DNA of 25,251 nt from a virus. A program made the position numbers and the translations under genes. The notes beneath the pieces are model-generated. The model ran no database searches. It saw only the letters and a list, made by a program, of their open reading frames with translations, and was not told the DNA's origin. Shown here piece by piece: positions 139-21,589 of the stretch. The first letter of the stretch is position 1. Every line of letters starts with the position of its first letter. The stretch is from IMG/VR virus record IMGVR_UViG_3300037193_001807, positions 1 to 25,251 of that record, one strand, 5' to 3'.

Positions 139-1037
139 AACCCGACTACCGCGAGTTCATCCGGGTGTCAGTCGACCTCCCGCTGAACCCGAAGCTCGCC
201 GTGATCGACGAACCCGCCGCCGGCTGGGCCTACGTCGTGGCGCTCTGCTACTGCGGGCAGAACCTCACCGACGGGTCGTTCCCCATGCCGGTCGTGCTGC
301 GCCTCGCTGGCGTGAAGACGACTGTGGCCCGGCTGCTGGTCGACGTCGGTCTGTGGCACGAGACCGGCCACACGTGCGAGCGCTGCCCGCAGCCGATGGC
401 CGGCATGGGTGTGGTGCACGACTACCTCGCTCACCAGCGGTCGGCCGAGGAAGCGAAGACCCTCAGGGATGCCCGCCGGGACGCGGGCAGGAAGGGCGCA
501 GCCAGCCGATGGTCTAGCAACCGGGATGGCAAACGCCATAGCAAGAGCCATGCAACTGCCATGACAAACGGATGGCAAGGCGATGGCGAAACGATGGCAG
601 AGGTAGAGGTAGAGGAAGAACAGAAGAAGACTTCGTCTTCTTCCCCCGCGTCGGCGGAGCCGCCACGGGACGATGTCGACCAGCTCGTGGCCTGTCTTCG
701 TGATCGGCTCCGAGAGAACGAGTTCAAGCTCCCGGCGTCGTTCCAGGAGTGGCGGCGCCACGCCCGCCTCCTCCTCGACCGCGACGGCCGCGATCTCAGC
801 CAGGCGTTGCGGCTCATCGACTGGGCCACCAGCCATCACTTCTGGATGGGCAACATCCGCTCGATGGGCAAGTTCCGCGCCCAGTACGACACCTTGATCA
901 CCCAGGCCAGGAACGAGTACCGGCAGGGCGCCAGCTCCCCGCAGCCCGCCAACCGCGTCGACGAATGGCAGCGGCTCAAGCAGACGGGCACCGATGGTCG
1001 GGCCCTCTTCGCGATCACGACGGGAGAGCAGCAGTGA
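129..1037 (+). CDS. Phage replication initiator protein (helix-turn-helix)
   Basis: The 302-residue product resembles actinophage replication initiator / replisome-organiser proteins. The N-terminal ~115 residues form a winged-helix-like DNA-binding domain (residues ~50-78 look like the helix-turn-helix). Residues ~125-180 are a low-complexity, charged and Ser-rich linker. Residues ~185-285 form a helical domain with the motif FWMGNIRSMGKFR, which is typical of the C-terminal domain of these initiators. The linker DNA carries a seven-copy ATGGC/GCCAT array followed by a purine tract, a layout like the origin inside phage lambda gene O. The start may be ATG 129 or ATG 135; the second forms an ATGA overlap with the leader peptide. 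The gene ends in TGATG with the next gene, implying translational coupling. Function is inferred from architecture, not from a database match. Confidence 0.75.
   Translation: MSMKPDYREFIRVSVDLPLNPKLAVIDEPAAGWAYVVALCYCGQNLTDGSFPMPVVLRLAGVKTTVARLLVDVGLWHETGHTCERCPQPMAGMGVVHDYLAHQRSAEEAKTLRDARRDAGRKGAASRWSSNRDGKRHSKSHATAMTNGWQGDGETMAEVEVEEEQKKTSSSSPASAEPPRDDVDQLVACLRDRLRENEFKLPASFQEWRRHARLLLDRDGRDLSQALRLIDWATSHHFWMGNIRSMGKFRAQYDTLITQARNEYRQGASSPQPANRVDEWQRLKQTGTDGRALFAITTGEQQ
526..598. repeat. Seven-copy ATGGC/GCCAT iteron-like array inside the initiator gene, candidate replication origin
   Basis: ATGGC occurs at 526, 572, 583 and 594, and its complement GCCAT at 535, 547 and 558. Successive starts are 9, 12, 11, 14, 11 and 11 bp apart, close to one helical turn. 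Several forward copies share a longer core, GATGGC followed by A or G. Seven pentamers in 73 bp is far above chance for either strand. The array lies in DNA coding for the disordered linker, as the iterons of lambda ori lie within gene O. It is probably the binding site of the protein encoded around it. Confidence 0.6.
599..643 (+). other. Purine-rich tract ending in a small hairpin, next to the iteron-like array
   Basis: From 599 to 630 the + strand is almost entirely A and G (only two T and one C), with short GTAGAG repeats, in a genome that is otherwise GC-rich. It ends in a 9-bp perfect inverted repeat (623-631 with 635-643, 3-nt loop). A strand-asymmetric, easily melted stretch beside iterons is the arrangement of lambda-type origins, so this could be the unwinding element. 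It also encodes the Glu/Lys/Ser-rich linker, which could explain part of the bias. Confidence 0.45.
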
Positions 1038-3267: not shown

Positions 3268-3387
3268 GTGACTGACGAGCCGTGCCGGCCTGCCTGCCCC
3301 ATCTGCACCGACACCACCCCACCGCAGGAGTGGGACGCACCCTGGCCCGCATTCAGGTGGAGCCCCGAACTGGAGGACGTCGAGTGA
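3268..3387 (+). CDS. 39-residue Cys-rich microprotein
   Basis: The GTG at 3268 lies 3 nt after the previous stop, and the frame ends at TGA 3385-3387, overlapping the next start as GTGA. It has three cysteines in a C-x3-C-x2-C pattern at the N-terminus, then a Pro/Trp-rich acidic tail. It may be a tiny metal-binding peptide. Support comes from gene packing and codon use only; it is too short for homology. Confidence 0.45.
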   Translation: MTDEPCRPACPICTDTTPPQEWDAPWPAFRWSPELEDVE

Positions 3388-3875
3388 CCGTCGCGAAGAC
3401 TCGCGCCCAGCTCGGCCGGATGTCCCGCAACAAGGGCGCAAAGGCCGAACGCGACCTCGTCGCATACCTCCGCATGGTCGGCTTCGGGGGAGCGGAACGG
3501 GCGGTTCGCACCGGCTACCGAACGAAGAGTCGCATCGCAGCAGACCCGGGAGACATCACCGGCACACCCGGGATCGTGTGGTCGGTCAAGGACGCGGCCG
3601 TCGAACGGATCGATGCCTGGCTCGACGAGCTCGACGCCATGGCCGCTGACCCGAGACTCCCAGTCGACGACGTCCGCCTTCTCGTTCACAAGCGCAAGGG
3701 CCACGCCATCCCCGACAAGTGGTGGTGCTGGCTGCGGCTCTGCACGCTCCAGCAGATCACCGACGCCGAAAGCAACATCGCGCCGTTCGAGTGGGCCATG
3801 CCTGTCCGCATGGAACTGGGCCACGTGATCGACGTCCTCCACGCCGCCGGCTACGGCGACCCGACCGAGCCCTGA
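3384..3875 (+). CDS. Putative PD-(D/E)XK-fold nuclease, Holliday-junction-resolvase-like
   Basis: The 163-residue product begins at GTG 3384 (GTGA overlap); ATG 3420 is an alternative. The N-terminal SRNKGAKAERDLVAYLR helix with Glu22, the DPGDITG turn with Asp57 and the strand ending in Lys69 (IVWSVKD) have the order of the PD-(D/E)XK nuclease core used by phage resolvases and VRR-NUC-type enzymes. The acidic residue expected two places before Lys69 is a serine here (Ser67), so activity would need another acid such as Asp54 or Asp70. Location at the end of the replication operon fits recombination or branch clearance. A strong hairpin follows the stop codon. Confidence 0.6.
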   Translation: MTVAKTRAQLGRMSRNKGAKAERDLVAYLRMVGFGGAERAVRTGYRTKSRIAADPGDITGTPGIVWSVKDAAVERIDAWLDELDAMAADPRLPVDDVRLLVHKRKGHAIPDKWWCWLRLCTLQQITDAESNIAPFEWAMPVRMELGHVIDVLHAAGYGDPTEP

Positions 3876-6946: not shown

Positions 6947-7252
6947 GTGGGCCGAGGATGGGTTGGAAGCACCCGCAGGGGTCGGCTACCCCGTGACTGG
7001 GCCTACCGCAGGCGAATTGTTCTCGAACGTGACCAGCACCGATGCACTCGAATCAACGAACACAACGTTCGATGCAATGAACATGCAACCGAGGTCGACC
7101 ACATCCAACGCAACGACAATCACGAACTGACAAACCTTGCGTCGTTGTGTTCGTGGCATCACGCACGTAAATCGTCGAGCGAAGGAAACGATTCGCGCGT
7201 TCGATTGTCATCGCGACGACCGAACGAGCAACATCCAGGATTTACTTCCTGA
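6947..7252 (+). CDS. HNH endonuclease upstream of terminase
   Basis: GTG 6947 is the first possible start after an in-frame stop at 6941 and gives 101 residues. The core is RRRIVLERDQHRC...RCNEH, then EVDHI, ND, NLASLCSWHHARKSS, the ββα-metal HNH signature with the His of DH, the Asn and the final HH. Small HNH nucleases beside the terminase genes are usual in cohesive-end phages, where they help DNA packaging. Here two cysteines near the start of the core and the CSWH site probably form a zinc site. From about 7000 to 7250 GC drops to roughly half, far below its neighbours, with codons such as AAA, GAA and GAT, a sign of recent acquisition. Confidence 0.8.
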   Translation: MGRGWVGSTRRGRLPRDWAYRRRIVLERDQHRCTRINEHNVRCNEHATEVDHIQRNDNHELTNLASLCSWHHARKSSSEGNDSRVRLSSRRPNEQHPGFTS

Positions 7253-15304: not shown

Positions 15305-15375
15305 TCCACTCAAGTTCGACGGAGGTATCGACGTGGGCGTATACGCGGTCGTTGCCGACGTCGAACTTGAGTGGA
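15305..15375 (+). promoter_or_regulatory. 17-bp perfect inverted repeat enclosing the ribosome site and start codon of the next gene
   Basis: Bases 15305-15321 are the exact reverse complement of 15359-15375. The left arm is in the short intergenic gap, the right arm lies in codons ~9-14 of the connector gene (VELEW region). The 37-nt loop holds most of the Shine-Dalgarno (GGAGG 15321-15325), and GTG 15333. An inner 4-bp CGAC/GTCG pairing can enclose the start codon. Such an RNA stem could modulate translation of the connector gene or act as a processing or attenuation site. Confidence 0.7.
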
Positions 15376-18340: not shown

Positions 18341-21300
18341 GTGTCATCTCCGGGCGGCGACGAAGTCGGGCGGGTATCTATCCGCGTCGTCCCGGATACG
18401 TCTGGGTTCCGCCGGCGGCTGCAGTCCGAGCTTGCGGGCATCGAGCGCGGCCTGGAGATCACGGTCCCGGTCAACTTCGAGGTCGACACGGCGGGGCTGC
18501 GGGCGCAGCTCCAGGCCCTGGACTCGTCCCGGATCACGATCCCGGTCGACCTGGATCTGGACACGGCGCGGCTACGGGCGCAGCTCGAAGCTCTGGACTC
18601 GTCCCGGATCACGATCCCGGTTGACCTGGACGTGGGCACGGCTATTGCCGAGTTGCAGGCGCAGCTGCAGGCGATCGACAGTCGGAATGTCAGGGTTGAG
18701 ATCGACATCACCGGCGTCGAGGCAGCCCTCCTGCAGCTTGAGGCGATCGAGGATGCCGTCTCGCGGCTCGATGGCCGCACCATCAACCTGAACATCAGCG
18801 TCGACGGCCTGGCCGCCGCGCTCGCTCAGTTCACCTCCCTGTCCGCGATCATCGGCCTGCTGGGCAGGGGCGGCGGCGGAGGGAGCGGCGGCGCGGGTGG
18901 CGCCATCGGCATGATCGGCCGCGGCCTCGGTGTGGCCGCCTCAGCAGCACTCTCTCTCGGCAAGTTCTTGCTCGCTGCCGGAGCCCAGGCCACGGTCCTG
19001 TCCGTCGCCGGCGCAGGCATCACGGCCGCCTTTGGAGCGGCGTCCACGGCCGTGGCCGTGCTGCCCGCGGTGCTCGCCCTGGCGGCCGCCCCGATCGCCA
19101 CGGTTTTGGCGGGCATGGACGGCATCGAGCGGGCCGCCAAGCGGATCAAGCCCCAGTTCGACGCATTGAAGGCTTCTGTCTCGGCCACCTTCGAGCGCGG
19201 CATGGTGCCGGTGTTCCAGAGGCTGGCCCAGACCTTCCCGGCACTGCAGTCGGGGATGAACGGCGTTGCGACGTCGATCACTGGGATCGCTCAGCGGCTC
19301 GCGGACATGGTCGCGTCCGAACCCGGCATCGCCCGGATCGATGCCGTGTTCAAGAACGTCCGAGCTTCGCTCGATGGCATGGCGCCCGGCATTGCGGCCA
19401 CCGTCGACTCGCTGCTGATCCTGGCGTCGCAGTCGGGCGCGTTCGACGCGATCACCCGTGCGGTGAACGAGTTCGGCACCCGGTTCCGCGCCAACGTCCT
19501 CGAGCTGGTCGCCAACGGCACACTCGATTCGGCGTTCCGCGGCCTCGCGGACCTGACTGGGATCGCTGCGCGGGGGTTCGCCGACCTGGTCACGAACGGG
19601 ATTGAGCTGTTCGCGGCCGCCGCGCCCGGCGTGAACCATGCCTTGGAATCGATCACCGGGTTCTTCAATCGGTTCGACTGGACCTCGCTCGGTGAGTCCG
19701 TCGGGGGCGTGTTCCGCGGGATCGGCGACGCGATCAACAAGATCCCTCAGGCCACGATCGACGGTATCGCGGCTGCGTTCGAGCGGCTGTCGGCCACCTT
19801 CCAGGATCCGGCCATCCAGCAGATGTTCGTCAACATCATCTCGATGGCGCCGTTGGCGATCGACGCGATCAACAACCTGGTGATCGCCTTCGCCCGGGTG
19901 GGGTCGTTCCTGGCCGGGCTCGCCCAGGCGGTCAACGGCACGGTCAAGTTGATCTCCGTTGGCCTCCAGGCCATCGGCGACCCGGCGGGCCTGCTGGCGG
20001 GCAAGTACACCGCCGCGTTCGCCGCCGCGGAGGCGGAGATCGCGCTCGGCTCGAAGAAGATCGCCGACGCGTTCGCCTCGAGCACTCCGGCGATCGCCGC
20101 AGCGGTCAACGGCATCCCGGAGTCGGTGCTCGCCCCGCTGCGCACCATCCCGGGCGCGATCAACACGCTGAACCCCGGGATCGCGGCCGCAGTGACGTCG
20201 CTGGGCGGCCGGAGCGCGAACGCCGCCGAGCGGGCGATGCAGGGCGTACCGCCCGCGCTGACCGCACCGCTGCAGCCGGTGCCGCAGCAGGTGACCGGCG
20301 CGCTGGCACCCGCTGAGAGCGCGGCCCAGACGGCCACAAACAACATCTCGAACACCCTGCAGAGCGGCGCGGCGAAGTGGGGCCCGGCGGTCGACACCGG
20401 CCTGCAGGGCATCACGACCTCGCTGCAGACAGGGACGTCGCAGTGGAGCACCACCGTCGGCACGGCGATCACCGGTGTCAGCATGGCGATCACCACCGGC
20501 TTCGCGGGTGCGGCCGCGGCCGCGACCACGGGCATAACCGGCGTCACAACCGCGATCTCGGTCGGCACGGCGAACTGGTACATCGCGGTGTCCACCGGGA
20601 TGACCGCGATGCAGCTGGCCGTGCAGGCTGGGATGGCGCTCCTGATCGTCGCTATGCAGCAGGGCTTCCTGCAGATGCAGATGATCGCTACCCAGGGCAT
20701 GGCGCTATTCGCGCAGGCGATCTTGGTCGGGTTCACGACCGTGGTCCCCGCGGTGCAGCAAGGCATGCTCCTGATCGTTATGGCGGTGCAGCAGGGCTTC
20801 GCCCAGATCGTTGCCGCCGTGACCGCGGGCATGGCCGCCGTCGCCGCCGCGCTCCAGCTCAACTGGGGGGTCGCAGTTGCGGCCACGGTCAACGCAATGG
20901 CGCAGATGGCCGCCGCTGTGACCGCTGGCATGGCCCAGATGCTCGCCGTCAGCACCCAGGGTTGGGCGCAGATGACACAGGCCACCGTGCAGGCCATGCA
21001 GCAGATGATCGCCGGAGTGACCAACGGCGGTAACCAGATGGTCTCGGTACTCACTAACGCGATCTCGCGCTGCCTCGCTGCGCTCCGTTCTGCAGTAGGC
21101 CAGTTCCGGGCCGCAGGTGCTGCCATGGGTCAGGCCCTGGCCGATGGGCTCAACTCGAAGGCGGGCGCGGTCGAGGCCGCTGCCCGACGACTTGCCGACG
21201 CGGCCGCTGCTGCGATGCGGGCGGCGGCTGAGTTCGGTTCGCCCCCGAAGGTCTGGGTCGAGATCGGTGAAGGGCTGGCCGGTGGCCTTGCCATCGGCAT

Positions 21301-21589
21301 GAACAAGGCCGAGGGCGTTGTCGAGCGCGCCGCTCGCTCGTTGGCCAAGACAGCGGTCGACAGCGTGTCCGGTGTGCAGGACGCGCTCGTGACCGACGCC
21401 TGGGCCACCGACTTCAACGCCCGGGTCAACGCCGAGCTGGCCGCTCATGACGTCGGCGCGGCCGTCCCGCCGCAGCCCGCGAAGCAGGTCTCGGTGGTCA
21501 ACAACTTCTACACCGAGTCGTCGTCGCGCGAGTCCGCGGAGGTCGCCCTGGTGCAACGTCGGCAGGCCGCCATGGGGATGTTCGGATGA
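18341..21589 (+). CDS. Tape measure protein
   Basis: GTG 18341 follows GGAGGTGA (18330-18337), an extended anti-SD match, and gives 1082 residues. The N-terminal ~110 residues carry a tandem duplication (ITIPVDLDLDTARLRAQLEAL). Residues ~165-260 include Gly-rich and hydrophobic stretches (VLPAVLALAAAPIATVLAG), likely membrane-active. The middle is helical. Residues 676-896 are twenty perfect 11-residue periods. The C-terminus (ADGLNSKAGAVEAAARRLADAA, FGSPPKVWVEIGEGLAGGLAIGM) is the conserved end of actinophage tape measures. At about 0.15 nm per residue the length predicts a tail near 160 nm. It is chaperoned by the two proteins upstream and overlaps the next gene by ATGA. Confidence 0.93.
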   Translation: MSSPGGDEVGRVSIRVVPDTSGFRRRLQSELAGIERGLEITVPVNFEVDTAGLRAQLQALDSSRITIPVDLDLDTARLRAQLEALDSSRITIPVDLDVGTAIAELQAQLQAIDSRNVRVEIDITGVEAALLQLEAIEDAVSRLDGRTINLNISVDGLAAALAQFTSLSAIIGLLGRGGGGGSGGAGGAIGMIGRGLGVAASAALSLGKFLLAAGAQATVLSVAGAGITAAFGAASTAVAVLPAVLALAAAPIATVLAGMDGIERAAKRIKPQFDALKASVSATFERGMVPVFQRLAQTFPALQSGMNGVATSITGIAQRLADMVASEPGIARIDAVFKNVRASLDGMAPGIAATVDSLLILASQSGAFDAITRAVNEFGTRFRANVLELVANGTLDSAFRGLADLTGIAARGFADLVTNGIELFAAAAPGVNHALESITGFFNRFDWTSLGESVGGVFRGIGDAINKIPQATIDGIAAAFERLSATFQDPAIQQMFVNIISMAPLAIDAINNLVIAFARVGSFLAGLAQAVNGTVKLISVGLQAIGDPAGLLAGKYTAAFAAAEAEIALGSKKIADAFASSTPAIAAAVNGIPESVLAPLRTIPGAINTLNPGIAAAVTSLGGRSANAAERAMQGVPPALTAPLQPVPQQVTGALAPAESAAQTATNNISNTLQSGAAKWGPAVDTGLQGITTSLQTGTSQWSTTVGTAITGVSMAITTGFAGAAAAATTGITGVTTAISVGTANWYIAVSTGMTAMQLAVQAGMALLIVAMQQGFLQMQMIATQGMALFAQAILVGFTTVVPAVQQGMLLIVMAVQQGFAQIVAAVTAGMAAVAAALQLNWGVAVAATVNAMAQMAAAVTAGMAQMLAVSTQGWAQMTQATVQAMQQMIAGVTNGGNQMVSVLTNAISRCLAALRSAVGQFRAAGAAMGQALADGLNSKAGAVEAAARRLADAAAAAMRAAAEFGSPPKVWVEIGEGLAGGLAIGMNKAEGVVERAARSLAKTAVDSVSGVQDALVTDAWATDFNARVNAELAAHDVGAAVPPQPAKQVSVVNNFYTESSSRESAEVALVQRRQAAMGMFG
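18485..18634 (+). repeat. Tandem 75-bp duplication in the 5' part of the tape measure gene
   Basis: Bases 18485-18559 and 18560-18634 are two copies of a 75-bp unit starting GACACGG, with few differences, mostly silent. Each encodes 25 residues with the core DSSRITIPVDLD. A shorter related segment lies before them. A recent in-frame duplication of a beta-alpha unit would lengthen the protein. Confidence 0.8.
20366..21028 (+). repeat. Twenty 11-codon periods in the tape measure gene
   Basis: A Gly codon recurs every 33 bases from residue 676 to 896 without a single insertion or deletion: 17 of the 21 marker positions are Gly, three Ala and one Asn. The residue after the marker is most often Met, Phe, Trp or Thr. 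Hendecads describe right-handed coiled coils, and 11-residue periods with aromatic residues are known in tape measures. Confidence 0.85.

Follow-up and report, generated by a model that had tools for sequence, protein, structure and literature searches.

Where replication starts in actinobacterial phages with initiator-type replication has so far been left open (PMC7157519). In mycobacteriophages the repA origin has been conjectured to lie upstream of or within repA, with no repeats reported in the regions examined outside that gene (Wetzel et al. 2020, PMC7157519). For phage Miko, repA together with 171 bp upstream is enough for replication, which is lost when repA carries an early stop (PMC7157519). 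The same question is raised at the level of individual bases by a locus near one end of the window, by which we mean the whole stretch of 25,251 bases of viral DNA analysed here. The record is classed as linear, and the window is therefore probably a genome fragment. We put at roughly 0.83 the probability that positions 526–643 are this phage's replication origin, lying inside its own initiator gene. The initial annotation knew of no earlier description of such an array in a phage of this type, which is consistent with the open-access literature searched, where Wetzel et al. 2020 (PMC7157519) go as far as conjecture only.

The initiator gene and its internal repeats

The features on which the argument turns are as follows.

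129–1037, + strand: replication initiator gene, 302 aa (PHROG, AlphaFold and BFVD matches)
186–533: winged-helix N-terminal domain, residues ~20–135 (AlphaFold pLDDT 84–98 in most of the domain)
540–644: disordered linker, residues 138–172 (AlphaFold pLDDT <50)
669–932: helical C-terminal domain, residues 181–268 (AlphaFold pLDDT 84–95 at residues 181–260)
526–598, both strands: iteron array, putatively initiator-binding, of seven ATGGC/GCCAT repeats
526–530, + strand: iteron 1, ATGGC
535–539, − strand: iteron 2, GCCAT
547–551, − strand: iteron 3, GCCAT
558–562, − strand: iteron 4, GCCAT
572–576, + strand: iteron 5, ATGGC
583–587, + strand: iteron 6, ATGGC
594–598, + strand: iteron 7, ATGGC
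599–630, + strand: purine tract, putative melting region, 29/32 purines, starting with a 6-bp tandem GAGGTA
623–643, either strand: hairpin with a perfect 9-bp stem and a 3-nt loop, C-TTC-G on + and C-GAA-G on −
1037–1540, + strand: downstream overlapping gene, 167 aa, with a C-terminal phage zinc finger (Pfam PF24623)

The assignment of 129–1037 as a replication initiator, first proposed from the letters and reading frames, is supported by PHROG profiles and by structural matches to viral proteins. The profiles matched are annotated as replication initiation, DnaD-like helicase loader, replisome organizer and O-like (main E-values 1e-21 to 1e-13), with scores of 1.2e-21 for phrog_3926, 2e-17 for phrog_2447 and 3.6e-32 for phrog_22834. 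Both profile match and replication-gene synteny place the gene in the actinophage initiator type PHROG 3926/2447/22834, and its fold matches in BFVD are replisome organizers and replication initiator A proteins. The protein (P0001) has no match in Pfam, RepA_N included, no sequence match among PDB chains, and no significant Foldseek match against the PDB. By structural alignment the N domain, in which AlphaFold gives the winged-helix order of elements, pairs with the iteron-binding RepA initiators 4pql, 5kbj, 4pta and 4pt7 at Z 5.5–6.0, a level that many unrelated winged-helix chains reach as well. The C domain aligns to one chain of the lambda P-DnaB complex, at a middling Z near 6. VIA-align Z values are below 7 throughout, unlisted families may match too, and structure by itself is no proof; these model-based matches agree with the initiator assignment without proving it.

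The neighborhood is that of replication genes. From its position and synteny, the product of 1037–1540 is a candidate helicase-loader partner; its counterparts in Culver and Che8 bear a helicase-loader annotation. A RusA-type resolvase (PHROG) lies near the initiator at 3282–3875. Among phage records, the genes most closely related to the initiator come from Arthrobacter, Streptomyces and Gordonia phages; they are annotated as hypothetical or RepA-like, and most have a replication neighborhood. Directly 3′ of the replication genes is a gene for a SLOG-family (YspA, cpYpsA-related) nucleotide-binding protein (1537–1911). Farther along, the window holds an imperfect inverted repeat at 15305–15375 (28 nt, 86%, loop 15 nt) and, at 18457–18606, a 75-nt stretch duplicated in tandem (84% identical) close to the beginning of a long ORF, 18341–21589, which is probably the tape measure gene.

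The seven ATGGC/GCCAT copies, four forward and three reverse, fall within 73 bp at start-to-start spacings of 9, 12, 11, 14, 11 and 11, in agreement with the number, orientation and spacing given in the initial annotation. All 25,251 bases contain only 71 copies, and seven in 73 bp is the top cluster score of any 5-mer in the window. In order-3 Markov simulations of the window, that score was reached by any 5-mer in 0/400 and a count of seven in 1/400. Synonymous-codon shuffles of the initiator gene, which preserve both protein and codon usage, reached the score in 0/3000. The codon frames of the copies (1,1,1,0,2,1,0) take in all three frames, so the repeats are not forced by the protein. Over 489–713, GC3 is 0.53–0.73, down from about 0.9. 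AT content at 530–643 is 49%, an enrichment that is moderate and similar to that near 7015–7055 and 23497, and a GC-skew switch, suggested in the initial annotation as a check, is not visible at 526–643.

The array gives way directly to the purine tract; the 32-mer from 599 is both the most purine-rich and the most strand-asymmetric in the window. The hairpin at 623–643 (GAAGAAGAC-TTC-GTCTTCTTC) was likewise found as first described, with the refinement that the last bases of the tract form its 5′ arm, so that the two overlap rather than abut. Array, tract and hairpin fall in DNA coding for the linker that AlphaFold predicts to be disordered, again where they had been claimed to lie. A search of Rfam gave no match.

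Arrays and hairpins among homologous genes

A direct scan of IMG/VR with the full initiator found no relative, a scan of genome contigs found one locus, and the plasmid relatives are few and partial. N-domain alignments yielded 160 IMG/VR loci, many of them on duplicated contigs, which with phage records make 103 distinct genes. By synonymous shuffles, arrays at p ≤ 0.005 are present in 25/101 homologues versus 5/101 control ORFs from the same loci, and at p ≤ 0.05 in 52/101 versus 17/101. The null is somewhat liberal, as 17% of controls reach p ≤ 0.05, yet the excess among homologues is still large; since homologues share ancestry, these counts do not stand for separate events. No significant array emerges in this test for about half of the 101 homologues. 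The strongest arrays lie mostly at gene nt ~350–480, and across the 103 genes GC3 drops 0.12–0.22 under the gene mean at nt 361–585 and nowhere else. Self-matches of linker 5-mers at lags of 11, 22, 33 and 44 number 267, 131, 225 and 94, versus 35, 18, 40 and 6 in a control stretch, where the larger values come mainly at multiples of three. The peaks at 11/12, 22 and 33 remain after the large GAATC group is removed.

Relatives that keep the initiator and lack the array were to count against an origin, according to the initial annotation. Some such homologues exist, but the prediction of a shared layout stands for the most part, as the GC3 dip, the 11-bp phasing and the hairpin are family-wide on average. 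L094, the closest N-domain relative, has a single exact ATGGC copy in its linker, together with a purine tract nearly identical to that of the window (GAGGTAGAGGGAGAGGGAGAA) and a different hairpin, CTACTACCCCC-TAAC-GGGGGTAGTAG, in place of the window's own. The tract is retained in L098 as well (GAAGTAGAGGTAGAAGTAGAGG), and across the roughly 100 homologues this stretch of the gene has a strand-asymmetric tract of purines or pyrimidines.

Repeat sequence varies between groups and tracks the N-terminal DNA-binding domain. The sharing of repeated 5-mers rises from 0.20 to 0.64 to 0.80 with growing N-domain similarity, among proteins with unrelated C domains; C domains are highly variable behind similar N domains. 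In Streptomyces-type genes the repeat is CGAWTCG at 11- or 22-bp steps in all codon frames, and the tract of the Streptomyces relatives is pyrimidine-rich on the + strand.

A stem of at least 7 bp is found at nt 440–640 in 70/99 genes versus 21/171 control stretches. Forty-four of the genes with such stems have triloops, and 39 of those loops are TNC. At least 12 different stem sequences occur at this one gene position, so that pairing is conserved while the letters differ. The family's longest hairpin, a perfect 18-bp stem with a triloop, is at nt 531–570 of the L033 gene; gp41 of Streptomyces phage Ignacio is another relative that bears a hairpin. The complementary strand of a C-TNC-G loop is a very stable d(C-GNA-G) DNA triloop, and the chemistry of d(GCGAAGC)-type hairpins is what favors the GNA strand. 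DNA folding parameters give the two strands of the window hairpin equal energies, with the GNA strand not favored; the case for that strand rests on d(GCGAAGC)-type chemistry and loop conservation, not on folding energies. This class of hairpin has been described previously (PMC10527192).

The 21-mer of the window hairpin occurs in 11 stretches among 2.9 million viral contigs, ten of them in initiator-like ORFs at the equivalent position, and most of these stretches have different repeat arrays upstream. It is absent from 395 actinobacterial genomes, and blastn of 596–648 against phage records gave no convincing match. Initiator-like genes with differing N and C domains (L191, L193, L194 and L195–L201) have the 21-bp hairpin in common at the domain boundary, where it may be an additional homology patch for module exchange. 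A bolder proposal, which we regard as somewhat doubtful, is that the hairpin represents a conserved actinophage origin element of a new kind, which folds in the single-stranded DNA that the initiator uncovers, marks the site of helicase or primase loading, and travels with the N domain and iterons as an exchangeable cassette.

Among named phages of Mycobacterium, Gordonia and Arthrobacter, all ten RepA-like genes contain arrays at p ≤ 0.05, nine of them at p ≤ 0.008. An 8-bp tandem related to GGGGAACA, in about 3–6 copies, is seen inside the RepA-like genes of nine Gordonia/Mycobacterium phages (L005, L203–L208, L210 and L211). In Babsiella (L207) and Polly (L210) it stands directly 3′ of a separate array, and that array is 11-bp. 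The Culver repeat CTGTTCC, with its 8-bp step, could be read as a set of iterons, but the presence of the 8-bp tandem alongside an 11-bp array in Babsiella and Polly suggests that it is the tract. Going by these sequences, the 8-bp purine-rich tandem of Culver-type genes is probably the counterpart of the tract.

Comparison with known origins

The locus has the marks of an intragenic iteron origin: repeats beyond what the protein needs, an adjacent asymmetric tract, and an array in the interdomain linker (as delimited by AlphaFold). An origin within the initiator gene, in its linker-coding part, has precedent in lambda and Stx phages (PMC7466680, PMC5043065). The likeness to the lambda origin proposed in the initial annotation was borne out when lambda O was put through the identical test. 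The array was recovered at nt 348–422 of the gene (0/3000 shuffles), where the annotated iterons occupy nt 348–432, and a purine tract comes next, then an inverted repeat that is imperfect, ATTCGTCAGA-GAAT-TCTGGCGAAT. In both phages the repeats lie inside the initiator gene (nt 348–432 of O, 397–470 here), and the order of repeats, asymmetric purine tract and inverted repeat is the same, in the interdomain linker. The details differ. Lambda has four 18–19-bp inverted-repeat iterons about 20–24 bp apart, whereas the window has seven sites of 5 bp at steps of about 11 bp; the lambda tract is strongly A+T-rich, that of the window a G-containing purine tract; and the window hairpin is a perfect triloop, unlike lambda's inverted repeat. 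Only in its C-terminal half (residues 143–269 for phrog_391, or 203–270) does the protein resemble O-like profiles, and PHROG and Pfam gave neither full-length O homology nor an O-type N-terminal domain, which sets the protein outside the lambda O family.

A second parallel is Rep of plasmid pSK41, in which the N-terminal domain binds Rep boxes in the middle of rep, the linker can be dispensed with and the C-terminal domain is DnaD-like (PMC5703833); there the N-terminal domain and ori can be exchanged as one cassette (pPR9) (PMC5703833). The window protein shares with it a winged-helix N-terminal domain, a linker encoded by what is here putative ori DNA, and a DnaD-like C-terminal domain; the fold match of the N domain to RepA structures is middling and no closer than to many unrelated winged-helix chains. 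It differs in having no sequence similarity to PDB chains and no RepA_N match in Pfam, and the repeat sequences are unrelated. Phage SPP1 offers a third: oriL lies within gene 38 and consists of direct repeats and a melting region, with a separate loader and DnaB-type helicase (PMC6316719), so that gp38/oriL resembles the window in having intragenic repeats and a melting region (putative here) where the origin-binding protein is encoded. In SPP1 there is a further origin, oriR, at a distance; none is seen in the window, which is partial, and as the window is a linear fragment another origin may lie elsewhere in the genome. Closest in host range are Culver, Che8, Redi and Babsiella, which have annotated RepA-like initiators, intragenic arrays and an adjoining helicase-loader gene; their strongest repeat, however, is the 8-bp purine-rich tandem, tract-like rather than iteron-like, and most are without a long hairpin. 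By analogy with these systems, the best reading is that the origin works like those of lambda O, SPP1 gp38 and pSK41 Rep while standing outside those families.

Alternatives and a proposed model for the origin

The repeats might instead be the initiator's own operator, serving autoregulation or a transcription block inside the gene, with the true origin elsewhere. The repeats probably do bind the initiator, the array does track the N domain, and autoregulation would be compatible with origin binding. An operator nevertheless leaves unexplained the asymmetric tract, the conserved hairpin, the continuation of the GC3 dip to nt 585, and the match to the lambda origin in position and order; moreover, mycobacteriophage plasmids with repA and 171 bp upstream replicate (PMC7157519). 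We consider this account improbable. Slightly less credence still is due to the idea that a low-complexity protein linker or a domain-exchange recombination junction gave rise incidentally to the repeats, the tract and the hairpin, the 21-mer being a homology patch for module swaps. In its favor, ten further initiator-like ORFs whose N or C domains differ contain an identical GAAGAAGACTTCGTCTTCTTC, and C domains differ greatly behind N domains that are alike; but amino-acid repeats cannot yield an 11-bp period that uses all codon frames, synonymous shuffles destroy the array, and a homology patch has no need of hairpins that covary in changed sequence. Most improbable is a transcription terminator or attenuator with the tract as its tail and no replication role, for although a terminator-like site is called on the − strand at 644–622, one site was found versus 0.8 expected, the pyrimidine-rich + strand of the Streptomyces tract leaves no T tail on −, a terminator on + inside a coding gene would truncate the initiator mRNA, and the hairpins share their gene region with the repeat arrays.

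Against an origin at 526–643 we have counted the only moderate AT-richness, the lack of a GC-skew switch and the homologues without arrays. The best reading is a self-contained origin cassette of iterons, melting tract and hairpin that would be bound by the N-terminal domain of the very initiator whose gene contains it. The winged-helix domain (residues about 20–135) would bind the ATGGC/GCCAT repeats, which, being about one helical turn apart, face the same side of the double helix. The resulting wrapped or bent initiator–DNA complex would open the adjoining purine/pyrimidine tract, and the C-terminal domain, tethered by the disordered linker, would recruit the replicative helicase, for which the downstream gene product is probably the loader. 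On strand separation the hairpin would fold, probably aiding helicase loading or first priming; this is the least certain step of the model. We infer the N-domain binding, melting and helicase recruitment because the pattern matches the precedents of lambda/Stx, SPP1, pSK41 and Miko.

This is very probably an origin of a known kind, embedded in the linker-coding part of the initiator gene, in a layout found in many related actinobacterial phages, some of which are propagated in teaching laboratories. The analysis offers a concrete, base-level origin model. Named Mycobacterium and Gordonia phages that can be cultured contain related arrays, so the model can be tested directly. Little emphasis has been placed in the lambda paradigm on a hairpin with a covarying stem. 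If the model is true, these phages would be a source of small origin cassettes, compatible with one another, for use in actinobacterial vectors.
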